Positions 18,118 through 51,273 of a DNA stretch of 51,273 nt are shown piece after piece. This DNA is from Thermocrinis sp. (lineage in GTDB: Bacteria; Aquificota; Aquificia; Aquificales; Aquificaceae): NCBI GenBank assembly GCA_028276475.1, contig JAPYWH010000008.1:1-51273 (forward strand), in the 5' to 3' direction. The stretch's first letter is position 1; each line of letters starts with the position of its first letter. The notes beneath the pieces are model-generated. The model searched no databases and was not told where the DNA came from. It saw only the letters and a list, made by a program, of their open reading frames with translations. Made by a program: the position numbers and the translations under genes.

Positions 18118-19083
18118 ATGGTTAAGGTAATAATAGTGCTGCTTATCTTACTTTTAAGTTTCAGTTCATACGCATCTTTGCAAGCTTGTTCTATAGCCTT
18201 AGATGATATACTGGTTAAAAACTACTCTTACCCAAGAGATGTGTTCTATGTAAGCATCCAATACAATGATGGTAGTATTTTGGGATATGATCCAACCAAG
18301 AGTAAATTTGTGGGTTATAAAGAGGTAGAAACAATAAAAGCAACACCGCCGGTTAAAAAATATAAAGACCCTGAATGGATACTTTATGCATGGCCAATTT
18401 TTGAAAGTTATAAAGATGAATACATCTATATCTATATAAACTCCAATGGCCTACGCATAGTAAAATATCCACCTTCAGTCTCTTACGACTACGATAAGAA
18501 GGGCAATCCAATTGAGGTTGGTAAATACATAACAGCTTACTATATTGAGTGTGCAGAAGGTAAAAATACTGTAAAAATTATGGCAAATGAACCGGCTATC
18601 TTAGGATGGGATGTGAGCGCGCTCTATGGAGAGTGGGAGGAGAGAATAACTAACTATTTTGCTGGTTTAGAAGTCCCAGAAGGTCTTTACGGTTCTTTTG
18701 TAATAACACCAAAAATGGAACAGAGGGAACTGATCTTTTACGTGGATAAAGACTACACGAAGATAAAGATTGAACTTAAGACAAATCCAGAAATTATGAT
18801 GGATGCCCTGAAGGGTTGCTGGGAGCTTGGACTCATCAAAAATAGAGGCATTCTAAACTCTCTGCTTTCAAAGCTTGAGAACGCAGACAGGCAGTATAAG
18901 ATGGGAAGCATAGATACCGCAAAGAAAATCATAAGGGCTTTTAGCAACGAGCTTTCTGCCCTTAAGGGAAAGCAGATAGACAAAAAGTGTGTCTCTGCTT
19001 TGCAGATGGATATAAAGGCTTTTCTTGGTGTGAATATAGTCCAAGAAGGGTTAGAAAAATTTATTAAAGAAAGTGGGTCTTAG
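18118..19083 (+). CDS. Secreted protein with FIMAH-like domain, copy 1 (C-terminal anchor lost)
   Basis: A 321-residue protein with a signal peptide (hydrophobic to about residue 20, ending SSYAS) and two Cys-containing N-terminal segments. The N-terminal two thirds are beta-rich and unrecognised (YPRDVFYVSIQY, GYDPTKSKF). Residues about 236-320 resemble FIMAH-type helical domains (ILNSLLSKLENADRQYKMG, then AFSNELSALKGKQI). It is a tandem paralogue of the next gene but stops at TAG (19081-19083) where the paralogue has TCG. In-frame homology continues past the stop to 19203, without the Cys and hydrophobic segment. The product is thus probably a soluble exported form. Local DNA is AT-richer than its surroundings. 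Confidence 0.7.
   Translation: MVKVIIVLLILLLSFSSYASLQACSIALDDILVKNYSYPRDVFYVSIQYNDGSILGYDPTKSKFVGYKEVETIKATPPVKKYKDPEWILYAWPIFESYKDEYIYIYINSNGLRIVKYPPSVSYDYDKKGNPIEVGKYITAYYIECAEGKNTVKIMANEPAILGWDVSALYGEWEERITNYFAGLEVPEGLYGSFVITPKMEQRELIFYVDKDYTKIKIELKTNPEIMMDALKGCWELGLIKNRGILNSLLSKLENADRQYKMGSIDTAKKIIRAFSNELSALKGKQIDKKCVSALQMDIKAFLGVNIVQEGLEKFIKESGS
18831..19080 (+). repeat. 250-base direct repeat, unit 1
   Basis: This segment aligns without gaps to 19995-20244 with 15 mismatches by hand count (about 94% identity). It encodes the FIMAH-like helical domain. Flanking parts of the two genes are clearly more diverged. Confidence 0.85.
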
Positions 19084-19203
19084 GGAGACAACCTCCAGCC
19101 TCAGAGCGTCAAATCTGAAGGCACACAAGTTCAAGCATCTGGCTCCTCGTCTTCCAAGGGTGGAAGTGGGCGTTCTATGGTTAGTGGCTCGTCTGTATAT
19201 TAG
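19084..19203 (+). pseudogene. Decayed in-frame C-terminal tail of copy 1
   Basis: Beyond the TAG at 19081 the same frame stays open for 39 codons to TAG at 19201. It reads as a relative of the Ser/Gly-rich linker of copy 2 (QPQSVKSEG is shared). The Cys of the copy 2 GCSMGG motif is Arg here, and the membrane segment is absent. Confidence 0.7.
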
Positions 19204-19314
19204 ATGAGAAAGGTAACATATTAACCATGGACCCTGCTTATAATGGTCGTTATAGGCCAGAAGATTGTAAAGGTATGAGGATCTTTAGCAGAAAATAAAA
19301 AGGAGGTGGTGTAT

Positions 19315-20427
19315 ATGGTGGCAATACTACTTAGCTTAATATTAAGCATCAGTTCTTTTGCCTCTTTGCATGATTGTGTTATTGTCCTTGGTGACGAGTT
19401 TACTAGGAACTACTCCTATCCGAGGGATGTTTTCTATGTAAGCATTCAATACCCAAACGGTGGGCTTTTTGGATATGACCCAGCTACGGGGAAATTTACA
19501 GGCTACAAGGATATGGAAGTGATAGAAGTTAAAGCTAAGAAGGGTACACACCCTACTTGGCCATTATTTGAAAATCAAAAGAACAAGTACATATATGTGA
19601 ACCCAAACGGTTTAGAAATGGTAAAGTATCCACCTACAGCTTGGGAAGAATTTGACAGCAATGATAATCTTGTGGAGAGGAAATACTTGACTGGCTATGA
19701 TATAGGTTGTACAGAGGGGAAGAACACAATAAGGATAGTAGCCAAGGAACCAGCCTTAGTATGGTGGGGCGTTTCTGTGGTTTACGAGGAATGGAACAAC
19801 GAAGTTATTCTTAACTATTTTTATGATACTCCAGAACCACCCGAAGGTCTATCTGGCACTTTTATGATAACTCCTGAGATGGGACAGAGGGAGATGGTCT
19901 TTTATGTAGACCCAGATTACAACAAGATAAGGATAGACTTCAAAGTGAACCCAGAAATGCTCATGCAGTCTCTCAATGGATGTGCACAATTGGGACTCAT
20001 CAAAAATAGAGGCATTCTAAACTCTCTACTTTCAAAGCTTCAAAACGCAGACAGGCAGTATAAGATGGGAAATGTGGACACAGCAAAGAACATCATAAGG
20101 GCTTTTAGCAACGAGCTTTCTGCCCTTGAGGGAAAACAGATAGACAAAGAGTGTGTCTCTGCTTTGCAGATGGATATAAAGGCTTTTCTTGGTGTAAATA
20201 TAGTCCAAGAAGGATTAGAAAAATTTATTAAAGAAAGTGGGTCTTCGGGGGACATTTTCCAGCCTCAAAGCGTCAAATCTGAAGGCGAACAAACCCAAGG
20301 CAACAGCCCTTCATCTTCTAAGAAAGGTTTTGGATGTTCTATGGGGGGCACCTCGTCTGCTGTTTATGTGCTTGGATGGCTCTTATTACCAATCTTTATC
20401 CTTGTAAAAAGGCTTAGGAAACTGTAA
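19315..20427 (+). CDS. Secreted protein with FIMAH-like domain and Cys-containing C-terminal sorting tag, copy 2
   Basis: A 370-residue paralogue of the preceding gene. It has an N-terminal signal peptide, a beta-rich domain with NYSYPRDVFYVSIQY in common, a FIMAH-like helical domain (about residues 230-312), and a Ser/Gln-rich linker. The C-terminal tail is GFGCSMGG (Cys about residue 341), then a hydrophobic stretch AVYVLGWLLLPIFILV and the basic end KRLRKL. That tripartite layout is typical of CTERM sorting signals, especially Cys-containing types processed by CPBP-family proteases. AGGAGGT lies 7 bases before the chosen ATG; two in-frame GTGs upstream overlap the ribosome site. Function of the exposed domain unknown. 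Confidence 0.75.
   Translation: MVAILLSLILSISSFASLHDCVIVLGDEFTRNYSYPRDVFYVSIQYPNGGLFGYDPATGKFTGYKDMEVIEVKAKKGTHPTWPLFENQKNKYIYVNPNGLEMVKYPPTAWEEFDSNDNLVERKYLTGYDIGCTEGKNTIRIVAKEPALVWWGVSVVYEEWNNEVILNYFYDTPEPPEGLSGTFMITPEMGQREMVFYVDPDYNKIRIDFKVNPEMLMQSLNGCAQLGLIKNRGILNSLLSKLQNADRQYKMGNVDTAKNIIRAFSNELSALEGKQIDKECVSALQMDIKAFLGVNIVQEGLEKFIKESGSSGDIFQPQSVKSEGEQTQGNSPSSSKKGFGCSMGGTSSAVYVLGWLLLPIFILVKRLRKL
19995..20244 (+). repeat. 250-base direct repeat, unit 2
   Basis: Partner of 18831-19080, offset by 1164 bases, 15 mismatches and no gaps by hand alignment. Confidence 0.85.
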
Positions 20428-39902: not shown

Positions 39903-40550
39903 TTATCGCGCCACTTCTACCGATGGATTTTGAAGGGTTCCCGAAAGTTGAAGGTTCAAACCCATGCCTGTTAGCTTGCCGTTGATGGAAGAACGGAGCG
40001 GGTCTGCCCTGTTAAAGGAAACAACACCATCCCCTACGACCAGGGAATCTAAAACCCTCGCCCGCCCGCTGAAGGTCCTGCCTTTGAATTCCACCGTCAG
40101 CCCATCCACCTTCAAGTCCTTGAGCCTTAGGTCCTCAAGCTCAAGCTTTCCCCTTATGCCATCCGTCAGCTCCAAGCTTACAAACTTTACACGTGCTCCT
40201 TTCAAACAGCCAAAGTTTTTCCCTTCTATCTCAATCTTTTTGTTTAAAAAAAGTTTTGTCTCCAAGCTACCACCCTGACAAGTGCCCCTCAGAGAGAGAT
40301 AAAAGGGCTTTATAGAAAACACTGCAGAGTCAAACTCCGCAAGCTTTGAACTTTTATCATATACCTGGACCTTACTGAGCTTTACATGAAACAGACCTTC
40401 CTCTACACCCTGTGCCATAAGGTATATACCCCTCTCCATAAGCACCCTATCAAGCAGTAAAAACTTGGGGAGGGTGATAAACAAAATAAAGACAGAAAAA
40501 AGCACAAAGAAAACTGCCAGCAGAAGAACCTCTTTAATCTTCAGCTTCAT
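39903..40550 (-). CDS. gspN: Type II secretion system protein N-like (GspN)
   Basis: A 215-residue protein with one N-terminal membrane segment (about residues 7-33, KEVLLLAVFFVLFSVFILFI in part) followed by a beta-rich periplasmic region that accumulates paired strands (GKLELEDLRLKDLKVDGLTV). This topology and its position after gspD fit GspN, an accessory inner-membrane component. Sequence conservation is low in this family, so the call relies partly on context. The start overlaps gspD by 17 bases. Confidence 0.65.
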   Translation of the reverse strand: MKLKIKEVLLLAVFFVLFSVFILFITLPKFLLLDRVLMERGIYLMAQGVEEGLFHVKLSKVQVYDKSSKLAEFDSAVFSIKPFYLSLRGTCQGGSLETKLFLNKKIEIEGKNFGCLKGARVKFVSLELTDGIRGKLELEDLRLKDLKVDGLTVEFKGRTFSGRARVLDSLVVGDGVVSFNRADPLRSSINGKLTGMGLNLQLSGTLQNPSVEVAR

Positions 40551-42540
40551 CTTTTTTTCTCTTCTTTTTGTTTGCCTCCTCCGCCCTCTTTCTCAACTCC
40601 TGTGCGAGCTTTTGGTGTTCCTCCGTGATCTTTGATAGGTCCTCTGGCTTTTCTATCACATAGGGTGTTAGAAAGATGAACAGGGACACCTTGTCTTCGG
40701 AGGTGGTTTTTCTCTTGAAGAGCCAGCCAAGGATCGGCACATCCATAAGCCCCGGCACACCTTCTATATTGTCTAAGGTCCTTGTGCTCACCAACCCACC
40801 GATTATTATGGTTTGTCCGTTTTCCACCACCACATCGGAGTTCAACTGGCGGTTGGAGGTGACGGGCACCGCATAGCTGAGGGTCCCTATCTGTGGTCTA
40901 AGAAAGTCTATTATCTCCTGAAGGTTGAGATTGATCAAAAGCCTTAGGTCTTTTCCTGAGATGGTTGGCGTAACGCTGAGGTTTAGTCCTACCTCCTTGT
41001 AGTCGTAGGTGATGATAGGCTGTCCGTTTATGTCAAACTTTACCCCAGATGCAAAGGGCACCACCTGACCCACTTTTATGATCGCCTCTTGGTTGTCAAG
41101 GGTTAGCACCTTTGGGTTAGAAACAATGTTAAAACCACTACCCTTTTCCAAAAGGGAGAACAAAAGCATTAGGTCTGGAAAGAAGAGGGTAGTGGAGCCT
41201 ATGGTAACTGAGGTGCCACTTCTGCTGAGGGCACCCATCACAAAGCTTCCCGAAAGAAGTGCATTATAAACATCCTGAAGGCTTGCACCACCAAAGGCAG
41301 AGCCCCCCTGCGTTCCAAGTATCTGCCACCGGACGCCTAACTCCAGAGCCTGACGTGTGCTCATCTCCACCACCGTAGCGGCGATCAACACCTGCTTCCT
41401 TCGGACATCTATCTTTTCTATGAAGGACTTTAAGCTTTCATACTCCTGAGGGGTGCCAAAGATTATTACCGAGTTGGTGCCCCTGTCAAAGCCTATCCTG
41501 AGCCCTTCCTTGGTCTCTATGGCTGTTAAAGGAATCCCCTGCCTTTGGGGTGTTTTTTGTTCTTCTTTTTTCAGTGGCGTCTCCGTACCCCTCGTATCCG
41601 GTGGAGTTGTCCTACGCTCTTGAGATTGAACTTGAGGTTGAACCGCCTGAATTGTGGAAGGTCCGCCCCCAAAGAGGGTCTGTAGGCTTCTGTATAATTC
41701 CTCTGCGGAAATATGGTTTAGCTTTATGATATAAAAGCCCCTCTCTAAGGGACCGAGGCTTTCTTCATCAAGGGTCTCTATAACTTCCTTTATTAAACCT
41801 TGAACCTTTTCATTGGCAACCACCACCATTGAGTTGCTGTCCTTGCTGAAGGTTATAAAAATTGGTGTGCCAAGCTGTTGTTGAAAGGCAGAGCCCAGAG
41901 CCTGAAGGCTTTGAAAAACGCCTTCCGCCTTAGCCTTCTGTAGCTTATACAGCTTGATGCTCAAGCCCCTCTCGTGAGAGTCAAGCTCTTTCAAAAGCTC
42001 CTTTAACTTTTCTATGTTTTTGGCTACGTCTGCAATGATCAGGCTGTTGGAAGGGGCATGCACCGCAAACTTAGCGTTGGGGGAAAGAAAGGGCTGGACC
42101 GCCTGCTGAAGCTGGAGGGCTTGGGTGTTTTCCGCCTTGTAGATGTATACGACCACCTCTCCTGAGTGGGAGGGTTTTTTTAAGTTTGCCAGGAATGTAG
42201 CCTTTTGCAGGGGCACTATGTTTACGTAATTTTTCTCCTCCACCACTCCGTAGCCCTGCAGGGATAATGCTAAGAGAAATATTTCCCATGCGGTTTGGAC
42301 GCTGACGGGCTTTGCGGAGCTCACTGTAATGGTGCCCTTTACCGCCGGGTCCAAGACTATATTTTTGCCCGTAAGCTCAGACATGAACTTGACCACGAGG
42401 GATATGTCTGCATCTTGAAAGTTCAAGAAGACCCTGCCCGTCCTTTTTTGCTCTTGGGCTGTTTTTTGAAGTTCCTCCGAAGTTTGGGGATAAACACATA
42501 CAGATAAGCCCAAAAGCAAGAACAGTATTAACCTTAGCAT
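40534..42540 (-). CDS. gspD: Type II secretion system secretin GspD
   Basis: A 668-residue outer-membrane channel subunit. A signal peptide (LILFLLLGLSVCVYP) is followed by N0-N3 domains (FLNFQDADISLVVKFMSELTGKNIVLDP; VYIYKAENTQALQLQQAV) and the secretin core (VPFASG, NLQEIIDF, TSNRQLNSDVVVENGQTIIIGGLV, VPILGWLFKR). A low-complexity Thr/Gln/Arg linker lies between N-domain repeats around residues 290-330. The C-terminal tail is Lys-rich. Twelve to fifteen copies form the pore through which folded exoproteins leave. The ATG follows the gspC stop with no spacing. Confidence 0.96.
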   Translation of the reverse strand: MLRLILFLLLGLSVCVYPQTSEELQKTAQEQKRTGRVFLNFQDADISLVVKFMSELTGKNIVLDPAVKGTITVSSAKPVSVQTAWEIFLLALSLQGYGVVEEKNYVNIVPLQKATFLANLKKPSHSGEVVVYIYKAENTQALQLQQAVQPFLSPNAKFAVHAPSNSLIIADVAKNIEKLKELLKELDSHERGLSIKLYKLQKAKAEGVFQSLQALGSAFQQQLGTPIFITFSKDSNSMVVVANEKVQGLIKEVIETLDEESLGPLERGFYIIKLNHISAEELYRSLQTLFGGGPSTIQAVQPQVQSQERRTTPPDTRGTETPLKKEEQKTPQRQGIPLTAIETKEGLRIGFDRGTNSVIIFGTPQEYESLKSFIEKIDVRRKQVLIAATVVEMSTRQALELGVRWQILGTQGGSAFGGASLQDVYNALLSGSFVMGALSRSGTSVTIGSTTLFFPDLMLLFSLLEKGSGFNIVSNPKVLTLDNQEAIIKVGQVVPFASGVKFDINGQPIITYDYKEVGLNLSVTPTISGKDLRLLINLNLQEIIDFLRPQIGTLSYAVPVTSNRQLNSDVVVENGQTIIIGGLVSTRTLDNIEGVPGLMDVPILGWLFKRKTTSEDKVSLFIFLTPYVIEKPEDLSKITEEHQKLAQELRKRAEEANKKKRKKDEAED

Positions 42541-43287
42541 CTACTCTACCCTCACCAAAAGTTCTAATGGTTTGCCCTCTCTGATCAGACCTATTTTAAA
42601 ACTGCTCTCGTTTCTCAGAACCTGCAGTATTCTAAAGGCATCCTCTCCGCTCTTTATCTGCTGGTTGTTTATGCTAACGAGCACATCCCCCTGCACTATG
42701 CCCACCTTTGAAAACATGCTCTGAGGGTCCACCCATTCAAAGAGAAAACCCGTAGTTCTTCCATCCTGCACATAGGGCACAAGCCTTATCTGTCTGAACA
42801 TAACGCCAGGGTCCGCGGTGATGTTTTCTATTTCCCTCTTTTGGACTACCGCCTGAAGGGTTTGGGTGCCCTCTTGGGCTATGGCTTTAGGTTCTGTAGT
42901 CTTAGCCTCCGCCTTTGCAAAACTAAAGCCTATTGCCTTTTTCTCCTCACCCCTTGAAAGGATTATGTAGTTCCTGTCTATGTGTGCAACCCGGTAGCCA
43001 CCCACCTCAGAGCCCACCCGAACTGTTTTAACCTGCCCATCTACGTCAATAAGTGCCAAATTTACGCTTCCTACTGCGGTAGCTAGCAGGCTAACGGACA
43101 CTTCTTTTTGTTGCTTTTTCTCTTCCCTTTTGAACACAGGGCTAAAGTCTGCCACCCTTGGCTTTTCCACCCTCATCACTGGCACCGAGCTTATCCCTTT
43201 GCTAATAAGGTTAGAGTAAATCAACAAGGGCAAGGAAAAGCATACTGCAAGTAGAAGGAACATATAGCCAAAAAGATGTACATTCAT
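42541..43287 (-). CDS. gspC: Type II secretion system protein GspC
   Basis: A 248-residue inner-membrane protein linking the platform to the secretin. One N-terminal membrane segment (residues 5-27), an HR domain (about 65-110, LLATAVGSVNLALIDVDG, VGGYRVAHIDRNYIIL), a linker, and a C-terminal PDZ-like domain (MFSKVGIVQGDVLVSINNQ). Immediately followed by gspD. No Shine-Dalgarno site; TATAAT (43303-43298) predicts a leader of about four bases. Divergent from gspE over 48 bases. Confidence 0.9.
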   Translation of the reverse strand: MNVHLFGYMFLLLAVCFSLPLLIYSNLISKGISSVPVMRVEKPRVADFSPVFKREEKKQQKEVSVSLLATAVGSVNLALIDVDGQVKTVRVGSEVGGYRVAHIDRNYIILSRGEEKKAIGFSFAKAEAKTTEPKAIAQEGTQTLQAVVQKREIENITADPGVMFRQIRLVPYVQDGRTTGFLFEWVDPQSMFSKVGIVQGDVLVSINNQQIKSGEDAFRILQVLRNESSFKIGLIREGKPLELLVRVE

Positions 43288-43335: not shown

Positions 43336-44751
43336 GTGAAGGTGGATGTGCTGAAGGACTACAGGGTTATCCCCCTTGAGGAGGATGAAAAAAGGCTAAA
43401 GCTCTTGGCTCCCGAGGGATATGACTTTTTCCTATTGGAAGAGCTCAGGTTTTTGCTGGGAAAGGAAATAGATGTGGTCCTTGTGGATCAAAACACCTTT
43501 GCACAGGAACTTCAAAGGAGGCTCGCCCAAGAGGAGGTGGTGGTGGAAGGGGAGGAAGGTGAGGGAGAAGCTCTAAAGGACCTCCTACTTGAAGAGGACA
43601 AGAGTCCTGCGGTTAGCTTTGTGAATTCTATGCTCATAAAGGCAACCACCCTTTATGCTTCGGACATTCACATAGAGCCCTATCAGGATGCATCCTACGT
43701 TAGGTTTCGCCTTGATGGAATTTTGCACGACTATATGAGCATACCCCTCTCTTTGCACGAGTCGGTGGTCTCTCGTATAAAAATTCTTGCCAACATGAAC
43801 GTGGCAGAAAAAAGGGTGCCCCAAGATGGAAAGATCAGGGTCAAGGTGGGTGGCAGGGAGATGGACATAAGGGTCTCATCGGTGCCCACCGTCTTTGGAG
43901 AGAGAATTGTCCTCAGGCTGTTGGACCGTTCCAATCAGATGCTAACCTTGGAGGACTTGGGGCTTTCTCCGGAGGACCTGCAAAAGGTCCGAAGGCTCGC
44001 CAAAAAACCTTACGGTATAGTCTTGGCTACGGGTCCCACTGGTTCTGGAAAGAGCACCACCCTTTACGCCATGATCCTGCAGGTAAAAAGCCCAGAGAAA
44101 AACATCATCACCATAGAGGACCCGCCCGAGTATCAGGTGAAGGGTGTTAGCCAAATTCAGGTTAATCCTAAGGTGGGGCTCACCTTTGCCAGCGGACTCA
44201 GGGCTATCCTCAGGCAGGACCCGGATGTGATCATGGTGGGCGAGATAAGGGATGCGGAGACTGCGGAGATCGCAGTCCATGCGGCGCTCACTGGACACCT
44301 GGTGCTTTCTACCCTTCACACCAACGACGCAGTCTCTGCGGTGGCAAGGCTTGCAGACCTTGGAATAGAACCCTTTTTGATAGCATCCTCCTTGGAGGGG
44401 GTCATAGCCCAAAGGTTGGTTAGGAAAATATGCCCTCAGTGTAAAACCGCATACAAGCCATCCAAGGAGGAGCTGGAAGAGCTTGGCTTGGAGGGAGATT
44501 ACATCTTTTACAAGGGCTTGGGATGTGAGAACTGCATGGGCACCGGCTACAAGGGAAGGACGGGTATCTTTGAGGTGCTTGAGTTGGACGAAGGGCTAAA
44601 GCAGTTTATACTAAAAACCCAAGACGCAACCGCCATAAAAAGGTTTGCCAAGGATAAGGGTTTTAAAGACATGCTACAGGACGGCGTGGATAAGGTGCTA
44701 CAGGGCATAACCACCTCGGAAGAGCTAATAAGGGCTATAAAGGTAGAATGA
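43336..44751 (+). CDS. gspE: Type II secretion system ATPase GspE
   Basis: A 471-residue cytoplasmic ATPase. A short acidic N-terminal region (EGEEGEGEALKDLL) precedes the core with ASDIHIEP, Walker A TGPTGSGKSTT, the Asp box IEDPPEY, Walker B-like DPDVIMVGEIRD and His box LSTLHTND. A tetracysteine zinc module follows (CPQCK and CENC, about 40 residues apart), typical of GspE and PilB. It powers pseudopilus assembly. The start is GTG at 43336, with TATAAT 8 bases upstream and no ribosome site. Overlaps gspL by 4 bases. Confidence 0.95.
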   Translation: MKVDVLKDYRVIPLEEDEKRLKLLAPEGYDFFLLEELRFLLGKEIDVVLVDQNTFAQELQRRLAQEEVVVEGEEGEGEALKDLLLEEDKSPAVSFVNSMLIKATTLYASDIHIEPYQDASYVRFRLDGILHDYMSIPLSLHESVVSRIKILANMNVAEKRVPQDGKIRVKVGGREMDIRVSSVPTVFGERIVLRLLDRSNQMLTLEDLGLSPEDLQKVRRLAKKPYGIVLATGPTGSGKSTTLYAMILQVKSPEKNIITIEDPPEYQVKGVSQIQVNPKVGLTFASGLRAILRQDPDVIMVGEIRDAETAEIAVHAALTGHLVLSTLHTNDAVSAVARLADLGIEPFLIASSLEGVIAQRLVRKICPQCKTAYKPSKEELEELGLEGDYIFYKGLGCENCMGTGYKGRTGIFEVLELDEGLKQFILKTQDATAIKRFAKDKGFKDMLQDGVDKVLQGITTSEELIRAIKVE

Positions 44752-45887
44752 TATACACGGGAGTGGACGGTAAAAAATCCTTTAGCGTGAATAAGTCCCT
44801 GCTGGGTAGGGGCTGGTCTCCCACCCAAAAGCTTGGCAAAAAAATATGTGTGGTGCCCTCAGACCTTTGCTTTGTCAAAGTTGAAAAAGCTTTATCCCAA
44901 AAGCTCTCAGACCTAAGGGATTATTACCAGTTGGAGGTTTCCGAAAAGTTCGGGCAGGTGGAGTGGGATGTTTCTTTGCATGGGGACCTTGCCATCTTGG
45001 GCGTTTATAAAAACTTTGAGGGGGAAGATTGCTGGGACATAGACCTTGAGATATTCTCCTTGGCGAGGGTTTTGCATTTGCTTGGGGTGGATGGGTGCGT
45101 GCTGGACCTCGGCAGAAGAAAGAGCACACTGGTATGCGTAGAGGGTGGAGTTCTCTCCCGCTACAGGGTGCTACTCAGGGGTGGAGATTATTTAAACTCT
45201 CTGATAGGGCTGGAGGAACCACAGAGGGCAGAGAGTTTGAAGATAGAAAAGGGCTTGGGGCTAAAAGAGGTGGAGGATGGGCTCAAGGGTATCCTGTCTA
45301 ACCTGAGAGTGGATACTAACACTCCCACCCTTCTTAGCGGTGGCGGTGCAAAGCTGAAAGGGTTAAAGGGGCTCTTTGGTAGGCTCATAGAAAACCCATA
45401 CTGCCAGCCCGAATACACGAGCGCCTTTGGTGCCAGCTTAAAGTATGTGGTAAAAACTCCCTACCCAGACTTTGTGAAAAGGGAGCTCTCTCCTCAGGAG
45501 CTTAGGTGGGCGGGCTTTTCTTTGGTGGGTGGGTTGTTGCTCTTTGGCTTGGCATACTTTGGCACAGAAAGGCTCTGGTCTGTGGAACCTTTGAGGGAAA
45601 AAGAAAGAACTGAGTTCAAAAAGCTATTTCCTAACGCGCCAGTTAGGGCAGTAAGGGAACAAGTCCTTTCTAAGGCAAGCAAGGAAGAGTCCTTCCAGCT
45701 TTCCCAAAAGCTCTCTGAACTATCTACTAAGCTCTCCTCGGACCTAAAGCTATACTCTTTGGAATTTTCAAAGGACAGTCTTTTGGTCAAGGGCGAAGGA
45801 AAGGAGGAGGTGGTCAGAGGGCTTTCGCCCAAGTCTGTTAAAAAAACGCCCTCGGGCACTTTGGAGTTTGAGTTGGAACTGCGATGA
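44748..45887 (+). CDS. gspL: Type II secretion system protein GspL
   Basis: A 379-residue inner-membrane platform protein. The N-terminal cytoplasmic part is actin-like (VDGCVLDLGRRKSTLV as a phosphate-loop-like segment, LLSGGGAKLKGLK near its end). One membrane segment lies at about residues 256-272 (GLLLFGLAYFG), followed by a periplasmic ferredoxin-like domain. It couples GspE to GspM. Start and stop overlap neighbours by 4 bases each. Sequence similarity within GspL is modest, but layout and position are convincing. Confidence 0.88.
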   Translation: MIYTGVDGKKSFSVNKSLLGRGWSPTQKLGKKICVVPSDLCFVKVEKALSQKLSDLRDYYQLEVSEKFGQVEWDVSLHGDLAILGVYKNFEGEDCWDIDLEIFSLARVLHLLGVDGCVLDLGRRKSTLVCVEGGVLSRYRVLLRGGDYLNSLIGLEEPQRAESLKIEKGLGLKEVEDGLKGILSNLRVDTNTPTLLSGGGAKLKGLKGLFGRLIENPYCQPEYTSAFGASLKYVVKTPYPDFVKRELSPQELRWAGFSLVGGLLLFGLAYFGTERLWSVEPLREKERTEFKKLFPNAPVRAVREQVLSKASKEESFQLSQKLSELSTKLSSDLKLYSLEFSKDSLLVKGEGKEEVVRGLSPKSVKKTPSGTLEFELELR

Positions 45888-46282
45888 GGCTGAAAAAGAG
45901 GTATGCGATCCTTTTCTTTGTTTTACTCTATGTATTGCTTGGTTTTTTGCTCTTGGACCGGTATTACAGGCTAAGGGACAGCTACTACGGGGATTACCTA
46001 AAGCACAAAGAAATTATGTTTTTGCTGGCAAACTACCAAGGGAGAAAGAGGGAAGCACCCACCGAGCAGTTGGTAAGAGGGCTCTTTTCCCAATATCAGG
46101 GGGAGTTCAAGTCCTTTAAGCAAACAGAAGCAGGCTACGAAGTGCAGGGGACAAACCTACCCGGAGAAAAGCTTCCCTACCTGATCTATGCCTTGGAGGA
46201 GAAGGGCATAAGCGTGCAAAAGCTCAGGGCGGTGGATAACACCGGACAGGGGCTCTTTGAAATATACTTGCTTTTGAGATGA
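45884..46282 (+). CDS. gspM: Type II secretion system protein GspM-like
   Basis: A 132-residue bitopic protein. Basic N-terminus RLKKR, one membrane segment (ILFFVLLYVLLGFLLL), a periplasmic helix, then a ferredoxin-like region (FKSFKQTEAGYEVQGTNL, ALEEKGISVQKLRAVDNTG, FEIYLLLR). This is the GspM/PilO topology. Lies between gspL and gspK with 4-base overlaps. Confidence 0.78.
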   Translation: MRLKKRYAILFFVLLYVLLGFLLLDRYYRLRDSYYGDYLKHKEIMFLLANYQGRKREAPTEQLVRGLFSQYQGEFKSFKQTEAGYEVQGTNLPGEKLPYLIYALEEKGISVQKLRAVDNTGQGLFEIYLLLR

Positions 46283-47133
46283 TCCCATTGCTTGCCCTAA
46301 TGCTCTTTTTGATGTCCGCCTATTATGTGCTGGATGCATACTCTACCGCCAAGTCTGCCCAGAGGGTTGTGGAGGAAGTATCCTTTAAAGTGCAGGCAAG
46401 CTATGTATTTTTTTACACTCTGCCCTTTGTCCTTGACCTTTTAAAAAAGGATGACCCTTCCGTGGATAGCCTTCAAGACAGCTGGGCACAGGAGCTAACC
46501 TTTAGAACAGAGAGGGGCGAGCTGAGGGCTACCATATACGACGAAGATAGGTTCTTAAACCTAAACTCGGTGGATGAGGGTCCATACGGAAAGTTCTTTG
46601 AAAGGCTCCTAAGGCTCCTTGCCATTGACCCTTCCTACAAAGAAAACCTTTTGGTTTGGACCGGCAAATCAAAGGGCACCATAAACACCGACTATCCCAT
46701 AAAGAGGGCACCCTTGGATGCAAAGGAGGAACTCTATTACATGGGCTTTGAGAGGCAAGACCTACTGGGAAAGGAACTGGGCGGAAAGTTTTACCCGGGG
46801 CTTTTAGGGCTTACCACAGTGGATTCCAAAGGAAAGGTTAACATAAACACCGCAAGCCTTTATGTGCTGATGTCCCTGGACCAGAGAATAGACGAAACTT
46901 TGGCAAGCAAGATCATAGAAAGACGAAACAGAGAACCCTTCAAAAAGCCCGAAGATTTGCTGATGGTGGATGGCATGACCCTTGATATCCTTTACAATAT
47001 CAAAGATTTAATAGACGTAAAAAGTTCCACCTTTCACATAAAGATGGAGTTGAGGAGCGGGGAGAGGTCGGCGATATTTGAGGTGGTCTATGACAGGCAA
47101 GCGGATAAAATCCTTTATAAAAAGCTACTCTGA
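46279..47133 (+). CDS. gspK: Type II secretion system minor pseudopilin GspK
   Basis: A 284-residue large minor pseudopilin thought to cap the pseudopilus tip. Hydrophobic N-terminus IPLLALMLFLMSAYYVL, then a GspK-type domain with RATIYDEDRFLNLNSV, INTDYPIKRAP and a helix-hairpin-helix-like end (VNINTASLYVLMSLDQRIDETLASKIIERR, in parts). Unusually it starts directly at the hydrophobic segment: there is no basic leader with a prepilin-peptidase glycine, and no alternative upstream start before an in-frame stop at 46258-46260. Overlaps gspM by 4 and the CPBP gene by 44 bases. Confidence 0.88.
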   Translation: MIPLLALMLFLMSAYYVLDAYSTAKSAQRVVEEVSFKVQASYVFFYTLPFVLDLLKKDDPSVDSLQDSWAQELTFRTERGELRATIYDEDRFLNLNSVDEGPYGKFFERLLRLLAIDPSYKENLLVWTGKSKGTINTDYPIKRAPLDAKEELYYMGFERQDLLGKELGGKFYPGLLGLTTVDSKGKVNINTASLYVLMSLDQRIDETLASKIIERRNREPFKKPEDLLMVDGMTLDILYNIKDLIDVKSSTFHIKMELRSGERSAIFEVVYDRQADKILYKKLL

Positions 47134-47587
47134 GCACATCCTTTACCTGTTTGTGCTACTCTCCTTATTTTTGCACAAGTTTTTGGGCATTCCAAACCTT
47201 TCCATTTTCTTTTTGCTCTCTCCACTTGTCTTTCTTGAGATAAGGCTTTTGGACAGGTGGATTTTTCTTTGGTTCTTTTACCCCGTAGCCTTTTTGTTTT
47301 TTGATGCCCTTTGGCTTTTGGGCATGACCCTCTCCGCCTTTGCGGAGGAGCTCTTCTTTAGGGCATACCTTATGAAAAGGTTCAGCAACCTGGAGGTTTC
47401 CCTTATGTTTGTGATCCCTCACTTTATCTTATACCCCGGCATCCTTTCCCTGCTCACCTTCTTTCCCTCCCTCCTTTTTGGTTTTGCCTATCAAAAAACA
47501 AGGTCCTTGGCTTTTGTTAGCCTTTTACACCTTGTTTCCAACCTGGTTTATTTCAAAAGCGCCTCAAACTGGTCCTTGTTTAACTGA
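47090..47587 (+). CDS. CPBP-family intramembrane glutamic protease at the end of the T2SS operon
   Basis: A 165-residue polytopic protein with about five hydrophobic segments. All CPBP (Abi/Rce1-like) motifs are present: AEELFFRAYL with the paired Glu and Arg, FVIPH with the first His, and LLHLVSNLV with the second His and Asn. Some small CPBP proteases act as sortase-like enzymes on C-terminal tags (myxosortase and relatives); others have immunity or prenyl-protease-like roles. ATG at 47090 lies inside gspK after AGGTGG, so expression is tied to the T2SS operon. Its 3' end overlaps the convergent DsbC-like gene by 40 bases. A candidate substrate is encoded at 19315-20427. Confidence 0.85.
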   Translation: MTGKRIKSFIKSYSEHILYLFVLLSLFLHKFLGIPNLSIFFLLSPLVFLEIRLLDRWIFLWFFYPVAFLFFDALWLLGMTLSAFAEELFFRAYLMKRFSNLEVSLMFVIPHFILYPGILSLLTFFPSLLFGFAYQKTRSLAFVSLLHLVSNLVYFKSASNWSLFN

Positions 47588-48905: not shown

Positions 48906-49293
48906 GCTTATAAAGAAGGCTTTTAGCAGAGATATGGAAGAACTGCCCGTGCCAGATGGATTGGAGGAAAGGCTCTTTGGGCGTAAGCGAAGATTTTTGG
49001 CATGGTTTGTGCCCATTGGCGCCCTGGCGGCGGGCTTTGCCATAGGTCTTTTCATAACCCAGCTGTGGCATGTGGAAAAGGTGTATGTGCCCATGAGTGA
49101 GGAAAAGAAAGAGGGTGTTCATGTGGTCTTTGAAAGAAACATTAAAATAGGTCAGGTGGAGGATTTTCTAAAGGAGAGGGGTTTAACCATGGAGGGTCCC
49201 ACGCCCGCGGGCACATACCTTCTTAAGGGTGCAAAAGAGAAAGATGTGCAAGAGCTCAAAAAAAGGGGATACATAAGAGAGGTTTTTAAATGA
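48892..49293 (+). CDS. Probable membrane anti-sigma factor with prodomain-like periplasmic domain
   Basis: A 133-residue bitopic protein. The N-terminal 36 residues are cytosolic (DELIKKAFSRDMEELPVPDGLEERLF), followed by one membrane segment (AWFVPIGALAAGFAIGLFI) and a periplasmic domain of about 75 residues. There is no zinc-binding HxxxCxxC motif. The periplasmic part (VHVVFERNIKIGQVEDFLKERGL...AGTYLLKGAKEKDVQELKKRGYIREVF) has the beta-alpha-beta-beta-alpha-beta order of I9-type protease prodomains, also seen at the C-termini of other anti-sigma proteins. It overlaps the sigma gene by 14 and the S8 protease gene by 4 bases. Confidence 0.8.
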   Translation: MREDELIKKAFSRDMEELPVPDGLEERLFGRKRRFLAWFVPIGALAAGFAIGLFITQLWHVEKVYVPMSEEKKEGVHVVFERNIKIGQVEDFLKERGLTMEGPTPAGTYLLKGAKEKDVQELKKRGYIREVFK

Positions 49294-50396
49294 AGCTTTT
49301 AATTTCTATACTTCTTGGCATAGCCCTTTGCACCGCCCAGACCATTGAGGTAACAATACCCGGCGGAACAGCACCCGGCGGGCAGAACTCCAACGGTGGG
49401 GGTGGTGGCAGTTCCATAGGTTTGGTTATCGGTGCCTTGGTGGGTTTGGGCATAAGCTTTTTGATCACCAACGCAGTCTTTGGCAAAGCAAAGCCGGATG
49501 TCCAAAAGAACGGAGACAAAAGACCCGCCTTTTTGCCCGGCTATTTCATAGTGGTTTTTGAGGGTCCGCTGGACCTTTCCTCCTTGGGGGAGGTGGAGGA
49601 TACGGTAGATATGGAAGAGGGAATAAGCTTTGCCTTGATAAAGGCTGATGTTAGCCTGGAGGAGTTTTCAGAGAAGGTCAAGGCATTGCCAAAGGTCCTC
49701 TTTTGGCAGCCCAACTACCTTTATCAGACCTTTGATGACCCTTTAAAGGAAAGACAGCCCTATTTAAAAAACACTGGGCAGTGTGAGGGTAAAGGGATAA
49801 AAATAGCCATCTTGGACACGGGGGCAGACACAGAGCACCAGGACCTAAAAACCGCCTTTTTGAGGGTGGAGAACCTTCTTAAAAGCCCCTACAGGGCAGA
49901 GGAGCACGGCACCGCGGTGGCATCGCTTATCGGTGCCCGGAAGAACGGGGTGGGCATGGAGGGTGTTGCGGTGCAGGGCGAGCTTTATCTTTTTAGAGTT
50001 TGCGAGGGAGGAACATGTTATAGCTTTCCCATCGCCAAGGCGCTGACGAGCCTTCTGAGGGAAAGGGTGGATGTGATAAACATGTCCTTTGGGATGTATG
50101 GAGAGGATAGGTTGGTTAGCCTTCTTTTGGAGAGGCTCAGTAAAAGGGGAGTTTTTATCACCGCACCGGTGGGAAACGAGCCCGGACCCCTACCCTTCCC
50201 CGCCAGCAGTCCCTATGTGATCTCTGTGGCAGGGCTTCCGTGCCAGCCAAAGGACCTGTGCGAAAAAGCCAAGGCACGGGAACCTTACAAAGACCTTTTG
50301 GTGGCGGTGCCCGGGGGCTACGGAGTGCGCTCTGGCACATCCCTGTCCTCCGCCTTGCACGCAGGGAGGTTGGCGTGTAAAATATCTGAAAAATGA
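49290..50396 (+). CDS. S8 family (subtilisin-like) serine protease, exported
   Basis: A 368-residue protein. Signal peptide (LLISILLGIALCTAQ), a Gly-rich linker, a second hydrophobic segment (IGLVIGALVGLGISFLI, about residues 48-64), then an I9-like prodomain (about 80-150, ISFALIKADVSLEEFSEKV, LFWQPNYLYQ). The catalytic domain has Asp in ILDTGAD, His in EHGTAVAS, the oxyanion Asn in APVGNEPG and Ser in SGTSLSSAL. Six Cys in the catalytic part could give three disulfides. The domain ends soon after the Ser helix. It overlaps both neighbours by 4 bases, so sigma, anti-sigma, protease and lipoprotein form one coupled operon. Confidence 0.92.
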   Translation: MKLLISILLGIALCTAQTIEVTIPGGTAPGGQNSNGGGGGSSIGLVIGALVGLGISFLITNAVFGKAKPDVQKNGDKRPAFLPGYFIVVFEGPLDLSSLGEVEDTVDMEEGISFALIKADVSLEEFSEKVKALPKVLFWQPNYLYQTFDDPLKERQPYLKNTGQCEGKGIKIAILDTGADTEHQDLKTAFLRVENLLKSPYRAEEHGTAVASLIGARKNGVGMEGVAVQGELYLFRVCEGGTCYSFPIAKALTSLLRERVDVINMSFGMYGEDRLVSLLLERLSKRGVFITAPVGNEPGPLPFPASSPYVISVAGLPCQPKDLCEKAKAREPYKDLLVAVPGGYGVRSGTSLSSALHAGRLACKISEK

Positions 50397-51273
50397 GCTT
50401 AAGATTGCTGGTGCCCTTGTTTGCCCTTTTACTCTATGCTTGCGGTGGTGGGGGTAATGTTGGAGGAGAAGACAGGGGAATTGTGTTAAAGCTCTCGGAG
50501 GTTTCCCAAGGTCCATACTCAAGGCTCACTTTGAGAATATCCGGCAAGGACTTTGAACCCTTGACCTACTCGAAGGAGGGACCCCTACAGCCCGGTCAAA
50601 AGGTGGTTTTTAATGTAAACGTCCCGCAGGGAAGTGAAAGGCTGATAGAGGCGACCCTTTACGACAAGGATGGAAAGCCCGTATATTATGCCTACGCGGT
50701 CTCAGACCTTGCCCCGGATGCCTATGTGGTTTTGGGGCTAAAGCCCACGGGTGGGAGTGCAGACGTCTTTGAGGGATTTTCGGACCAGATGGTAAAAATC
50801 GGTGGAAGGGTGTTTGTTCTTAGCGAAGACCTGTATTCAACCAACTGGCAGTTGGACGCCAACACGAAAGACCTTCTCCCCGGGGCATACCTTGCGTATA
50901 TAACTCCAAAGGGCGTTTTTTACGCACCCGTGGGCGAAAGGTTGGTGGTGGAAAGTTTATACACCCTAAACCTTCAGGACGCACCCGCGGATGTGGAACT
51001 CTTTGGCAGTGTGGAGGGACCAGCCCAAGGGAACCTTACCGCAAGCTCTTCAAGGGTAACCTCCGACAAAAGGGTAGTTCTTGTGGGTTTTGGAGATGGT
51101 CTTTATTATGCGGTGGGAAGTAGTCTTGAACAGCCCATAAGCCTGAGCGGTCCCACCTGCAGGAGCGGTTCCGAGCCAGACTGCGGAAGGGTAAGAGTTA
51201 GCGTGGGAGGCTTGGGCTTGGACGCCACCCAAATGCTTGCCACTTACAAAGGCATCACCTTTCCCGCGGGCAG
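50393..51273 (+). CDS. Lipoprotein of unknown function, 3' end beyond window
   Basis: An open frame of 293 codons from ATG at 50393, overlapping the protease stop by 4 bases (ATGA) and running off the right edge. The N-terminus MSLRLLVPLFALLLYAC is a lipoprotein signal with Cys17 lipidated, followed by a Gly-rich spacer. The rest is beta-rich with repeated short strands (YSRLTLRISGKDF, GAYLAYITPKGVFYAPVG, VVLVGFGDGLYYAVGS), suggesting Ig-like or propeller-like modules, and a Cys pair (GPTCRSGSEPDCG). No family recognised. As the last visible member of the sigma operon it is a candidate effector or substrate of the protease. Confidence 0.8.
   Translation, partial: MSLRLLVPLFALLLYACGGGGNVGGEDRGIVLKLSEVSQGPYSRLTLRISGKDFEPLTYSKEGPLQPGQKVVFNVNVPQGSERLIEATLYDKDGKPVYYAYAVSDLAPDAYVVLGLKPTGGSADVFEGFSDQMVKIGGRVFVLSEDLYSTNWQLDANTKDLLPGAYLAYITPKGVFYAPVGERLVVESLYTLNLQDAPADVELFGSVEGPAQGNLTASSSRVTSDKRVVLVGFGDGLYYAVGSSLEQPISLSGPTCRSGSEPDCGRVRVSVGGLGLDATQMLATYKGITFPAG

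Follow-up and report, generated by a model that had tools for sequence, protein, structure and literature searches.

Our analysis of the window (the whole stretch of 51,273 nt from a Thermocrinis sp. contig) and of Aquificota genomes suggests that this phylum has a myxosortase system wired into a T2SS operon, in which proteins would be exported, modified at a cysteine, cleaved by the protease Mrt and displayed at the surface by the T2SS. We give this reading a probability of about 0.8. The mrt gene, its conserved overlap with gspK, its catalytic residues, a family of C-terminal tags, co-occurrence, co-deletion with the T2SS and the types of cargo were all observed.

The features of the window are listed in Table 1. 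The initial annotation had described a small CPBP protease gene starting 44 bases inside gspK, at the end of a gspE-L-M-K series. This was confirmed; the overlap is exactly 44 nt, and gspE and gspK were recognized by models, L and M by position and conservation. The five genes gspE-L-M-K-mrt lie head to tail and overlap. Divergent from them on the minus strand are gspC, gspD and a GspN-like ORF (39903-43287), so the T2SS locus is larger than had been seen before. Among the loci re-fetched, the same divergent layout was also found in L031 (genome G054). The ORF at 39903-40550 is a candidate for a divergent GspN/AsmA-like protein, with an AF2 model of pLDDT 79.5. It had no Pfam match at E ≤ 0.1, and Foldseek gave weak LptA matches, none at E ≤ 0.001. 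Family and Foldseek searches thus failed as proof that it is GspN, and the fold is suggestive. At the other end of the window (49290-51273) lies an S8 protease gene without a tag, and the lipoprotein gene after it (YACGGGGNVGG) is cut by the contig end. Next to the lipid Cys of this lipoprotein is a Gly-rich stretch similar to the T2SS sorting motif of the GspN type.

Table 1. Features of the window that bear on the mrt gene, its T2SS locus and its putative substrates.
Feature	Position	Strand	Remarks
Tandem paralog, untagged	18118..19083	+	decayed tag follows the stop in frame
Tagged substrate candidate	19306..20427	+	N-terminus like a signal peptide; weak FIMAH match; Cys tag at the C-terminus
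C-terminal tag SSSKKGFGCSMGGTSSAVYVLGWLLLPIFILVKRLRKL	20308..20424	+	Cys motif, hydrophobic stretch, basic tail
Candidate GspN	39903..40550	-	one membrane helix and beta-strand chain, AsmA-like look; kept after gspD; no sequence-family match
gspD secretin	40534..42540	-	PF00263 7e-41; gspD N0 6e-24
gspC-like, PDZ domain	42541..43287	-	divergent from gspE
gspE, T2SS ATPase	43336..44751	+	TIGR02533 620 bits vs cut-off 630
gspL	44748..45887	+	position and conservation; weak FtsA-like match
gspM	45884..46282	+	position and conserved neighbour; no family match
gspK, T2SS minor pseudopilin	46279..47133	+	NF037980 1.1e-22, PF03934; overlaps mrt
mrt, myxosortase-like CPBP intramembrane protease	47090..47587	+	165 aa; the ATG lies 44 nt within gspK and is preceded by an SD-like GAGG

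The three motifs that had been read in this protein, EELFFR (86-91), FVIPH (H111) and HLVSN (H147..N151), are present. In an alignment of 64 relatives, no variation was seen at E86, E87, F89, F90, R91, H111 or H147, and conservation of N151 is 90% or more, which means that the CPBP catalytic residues (EExxxR, the second His and HxxxN) are all kept. The window Mrt also passes the Pfam Rce1-like model (PF02517; 41.6 bits, cut-off 22.4). A scan of a public genome contig collection gave only two near relatives, both from Thermocrinis MAGs. The dN/dS of mrt against two close relatives was about 0.17-0.24; therefore, mrt is a real gene under purifying selection. Its AF2 model is all-helical and confident (pLDDT 91). 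A Foldseek search of this model against PDB returned no significant match, with no Rce1 chain among the results, and a profile search of PDB sequences with Mrt returned nothing significant.

We compared the window Mrt with the MrtX, MrtJ and related models, as the initial annotation had proposed, and found that myxosortase models gave the best matches. The best NCBIfam hits were Mrt_core (6e-12) and MrtJ (7e-10), followed by MrtP, MrtS and MrtC. All scores against myxosortase models were below the curated cut-offs, for example 45.5 of 100 bits for Mrt_core (NF040914) and 17.9 of 180 bits for MrtX. The Mrt_core cut-off was passed in 0 of the 136 Aquificota genomes; the highest scores (84 of 100 bits; phylum best 83.8) belong to Desulfurobacteriaceae-like proteins. 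Mrt_core, MrtP, MrtC, MrtS and MrtJ were each matched by 64/64 aligned Aquificota relatives, a more consistent result than with the other CPBP models. From these matches, the window Mrt would function like a myxosortase, with cleavage as its predicted activity, yet it is covered by no named member family.

We explored the linkage of mrt to gspK in the survey set of 136 Aquificota genomes, 89 of which have a match to the window Mrt. The gene overlaps the end of gspK in 18 genomes from four Aquificaceae genera (g1, g4, g6 and g7), so that a linkage peculiar to the window genome, the outcome that would have spoken against the earlier proposal, can be rejected. The start of mrt differs among these genera. 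Both g1 and g4 have an ATG at -44 within gspK, preceded by GAGG. In g7 that codon has become ACG, and a TTG stands at -23 inside gspK behind AGGAGG; G035 (g6) has TTG at -44 and ATG at -29. Despite these codon changes, the start has been kept inside gspK, which fits translational coupling; through the overlap, production of Mrt may be coupled to that of the T2SS. On the tree, a single gain and a single loss account for the linked Mrt. The loss is in G051 (which we take to be T. albus-like), where gspK and mrt are both present but apart.

Mrt-like proteins without T2SS linkage occur elsewhere in Aquificota. At g3 loci (L028, L033, L038, L046 and others), Mrt lies between thiD-like and coaE-like genes and overlaps the upstream gene; this is a second operon context, unrelated to T2SS. 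In about 10 Desulfurobacteriaceae-like genomes, lspA is directly 3' of mrt, often overlapping it (L084:3808-4839, L081, L082, L083, L085, L086 and others). The lspA gene encodes lipoprotein signal peptidase, and the pairing hints, at the level of genes, at lipidation of the tag Cys.

A tagged protein had been reported about 27 kb from mrt, and we located it at a distance of 26.7 kb. Its tail (...KKGFGCSMGGTSSAVYVLGWLLLPIFILVKRLRKL) was used as a query and revealed a shared pattern, GGGGCS(M/L/V), then a hydrophobic stretch and RR(L/F)xR, in which the Gly-Cys is invariant. A profile built from 19 tails gave 99 matches at E ≤ 1e-3 in the 136 genomes, with at most 10 per genome. The reversed profile gave 1 match, and chance hydrophobic tails are ruled out by this control. 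The matches extend to the extreme C-terminus or close to it; in the fetched loci, all tags examined end at most 17 residues before the stop codon. Against the MYXO-CTERM model (TIGR03901, cut-off 20 bits), the window tail scored 16.0, while 2 of 6 tails were above the cut-off (22.9 and 20.5). No tail passed JDVT-CTERM (NF033191, 27 bits; best 17.9) or Synerg-CTERM (TIGR04564, 22.5 bits; best 18.2), although some approached one or the other. Past the stop of the untagged paralog, the window (19081-19220) retains in frame a decayed tag, KGGSGRSMVSGSSVY followed by a stop, whose invariant Cys has become Arg and whose helix is lost.

The long tagged proteins include 13 S8 subtilases among 41, and the others carry SBBP propellers, InlB-type repeats and choice-of-anchor domains. 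A signal-peptide-like start was found in most tagged proteins with a complete 5' end. These features suggest that tagged proteins are mostly of surface type, with a predicted location at the cell surface. Tagged genes stand at T2SS loci in at least four separate cases. A tagged subtilase gene is divergent from gspE in G040 (L156), G043 (L159) and G047 (L158), follows mrt after about 840 nt in G053 (presumably T. ruber-like; L168:1392-3311), and overlaps the gspC-D genes in G079 (L164). In G104 (L072/L167), a tagged subtilase gene is convergent with mrt and 2 kb away from gspK.

Tags and protease are associated within Aquificaceae, in favour of the initial annotation; an absence of Cys-type tags from genomes with mrt, which would have counted against it, can likewise be rejected. 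Tags were found in 17 of the 18 genomes with linked mrt and in 14 of 46 others (Fisher, p = 2.8e-6); for high-quality genomes, the counts were 15/15 and 9/27. Mrt itself was present in 41/41 genomes with gspK and in 9/23 without (p = 1.7e-8; g5 counted as lacking a true gspK). These p-values ignore the kinship between genomes, and because the gspK linkage is a single gain on the tree, the linked genomes are not independent data and the p-values overstate independence.

Outside g5, every gspK-positive Aquificaceae genome has Mrt. G036 and G037 share a single junction, identical to the base (L165:6019 and L166:4921), at which gspN codon 182 runs into mrt codon 58. The deletion took out gspC/D/E/L/M/K, and its remnant (L165:5906-6393, L166:4550-5034) is the 3' end of gspN fused to the 3' part of mrt. 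No T2SS-type GspD remains in these two genomes, and the tag profile matched nothing in G036 and one weak 23-residue fragment in G037. G052, G038 and G057 are among the genomes that have no T2SS secretin, Mrt or tags. There are exceptions. G046 (99% complete) has a strong tag on an 895-aa ORF (G046:C8:23774-23884) with no T2SS-type GspD and no Mrt, which would represent an orphan substrate or a recent loss. G055 (87% complete) has tags and GspD with no Mrt, and G035 (69% complete) has linked Mrt with no clear tag. The g5 genomes keep a GspD-like protein and have neither Mrt nor tags.

Three other explanations should be weighed against these data. Mrt may be a true tag protease whose position after gspK is an inherited accident without functional meaning. 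Its one origin and one loss (G051), and its presence in unrelated operons of other lineages, could be explained in this way. However, the start of mrt and an SD were re-formed inside gspK after the ATG was lost, tagged genes adjoin T2SS genes in separate lineages, and T2SS and Mrt vanish together, with no gspK-positive Aquificaceae lacking Mrt outside g5. We consider such an accident unlikely. It is also conceivable that Mrt acts on the T2SS itself, for instance by trimming GspK, GspL or GspM, and that something else handles the tags. The gspK overlap and a linkage that has lasted in four genera would be expected from such a role, which is nevertheless improbable, as relatives of the same family lie away from T2SS genes in genomes with tags and known relatives cut Cys tags (PMC11980579). 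Moreover, the GspD-type secretin of g5 persists without Mrt and without tags; therefore, the T2SS does not need Mrt.

A generic housekeeping CPBP protein, such as a bacteriocin-immunity-like one, with tags that are plain C-terminal membrane anchors, is very hard to reconcile with the results. CPBP proteins are indeed common and mostly have no known role, and the scores are under the Mrt cut-offs. However, the consistent match of all 64 relatives to five Mrt models, above other CPBP models, argues against it, and so do the co-occurrence of tags and protease and the invariant Gly-Cys, which a plain anchor would not need.

Our preferred reading is thus that Mrt of these hot-spring bacteria probably cuts the Cys-containing tail off exported proteins for anchoring at the cell surface. 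We propose a mechanism by analogy to MrtX (PMC11980579), from which we infer cleavage, lipidation, the sequence of the steps, a location at the surface and dependence on the T2SS. Substrates would be exported by Sec and lose their signal peptide. The C-terminal hydrophobic segment would hold them in the inner membrane, with the Gly-rich Cys motif in the periplasm and the Arg/Lys tail inside. The tag Cys would then be modified, probably acylated, and Lgt is suggested for this step. Mrt would cut beside the tag Cys and free the protein from its membrane helix. Finally, the T2SS (GspC-M, possibly together with the GspN-like protein) would carry the protein, already folded, to the surface, to be anchored there by its lipid. 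The GspN-like ORF and the Gly-rich tag fit a GspN-dependent lipoprotein picture, without proving it. The initial annotation had suggested a T2SS-linked C-terminal processing and anchoring system in Aquificales; linkage, tags and Mrt matches stood, while processing and anchoring are predicted from known relatives.

In Myxococcus xanthus, cleavage of TraA by MrtX needs the tag Cys, and MrtX cargo uses T2SS (PMC11980579). Like the MrtX/MYXO-CTERM pair, the Aquificota system has a CPBP glutamic protease with EExxxR, H and HxxxN and a tag with an invariant Cys, a hydrophobic helix and an Arg-rich tail. The T2SS dependence known for MYXO-CTERM cargo (PMC11980579) would extend to Aquificota cargo. 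However, MrtX is larger, whereas the window Mrt is a short catalytic core alone (165 aa), and the MrtX gene lies in its own three-gene cluster, whereas mrt overlaps gspK. MrtJ/JDVT-CTERM and MrtS/Synerg-CTERM (NCBIfam) are likewise small CPBP sorting proteases with a GGGGCS-like tag motif, and they give the closest scores to the window Mrt after Mrt_core and MrtP. MrtJ is paired one-to-one with a single neighbouring target, whereas the Aquificota Mrt, in a T2SS operon, would serve as many as about 10 tagged proteins in one genome.

Rhombosortase/GlyGly-CTERM (PMC3237569; VesB, PMC13393428) is similar in that an intramembrane protease cuts tails and that T2SS cargo, including a serine protease, is kept at the surface. 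However, rhombosortase is a rhomboid serine protease and not a CPBP protein, GlyGly-CTERM has no invariant Cys, and no link was found between rhombosortase and any T2SS subclass (PMC3237569). In Acinetobacter, T2SS cargo acylated at the N-terminus requires GspN, and a Gly-rich segment next to the Cys is important (PMC12802150). The likeness is that T2SS carries acylated proteins to the surface and that a Gly-rich stretch adjoins the lipidated Cys, but there the lipid is N-terminal, added via Lgt and LspA, and a GspN role in Aquificota would be a guess from the window ORF.

The initial annotation had regarded the system as not described. The wiring of the protease into the T2SS operon and the Aquificota branch, with its tag family and protease, appear new in the literature compared, where no earlier description of a tail-cutting protease linked to T2SS genes was found; this literature excludes Haft 2024, reportedly the founding myxosortase paper. 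The class itself, T2SS-dependent myxosortase/MYXO-CTERM, was already known (PMC11980579).

Rhombosortase and myxosortase have been tied to T2SS by the behaviour of their substrates; here, the protease gene belongs to the T2SS operon itself and disappears together with the T2SS. Aquificota are often placed near the base of Bacteria. The tag profile predicts Aquificota surface proteins, the mrt-lspA pair supports the lipidated-Cys model, and Mrt, as a small thermophilic enzyme, is a good candidate for structural work. More tentatively, and with distinctly less confidence than in the system as a whole, the Aquificaceae T2SS might be chiefly a surface-display machine that brings its own enzyme for cutting tails, tied by translation to GspK, the pseudopilin of the tip. 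The freeing of a Cys-lipidated substrate from the inner membrane and its loading into the pseudopilus would then form one coupled step, and the mrt-lspA pair of Desulfurobacteriaceae-like genomes would mark a Cys-lipid chemistry of the N-terminal lipoprotein type.
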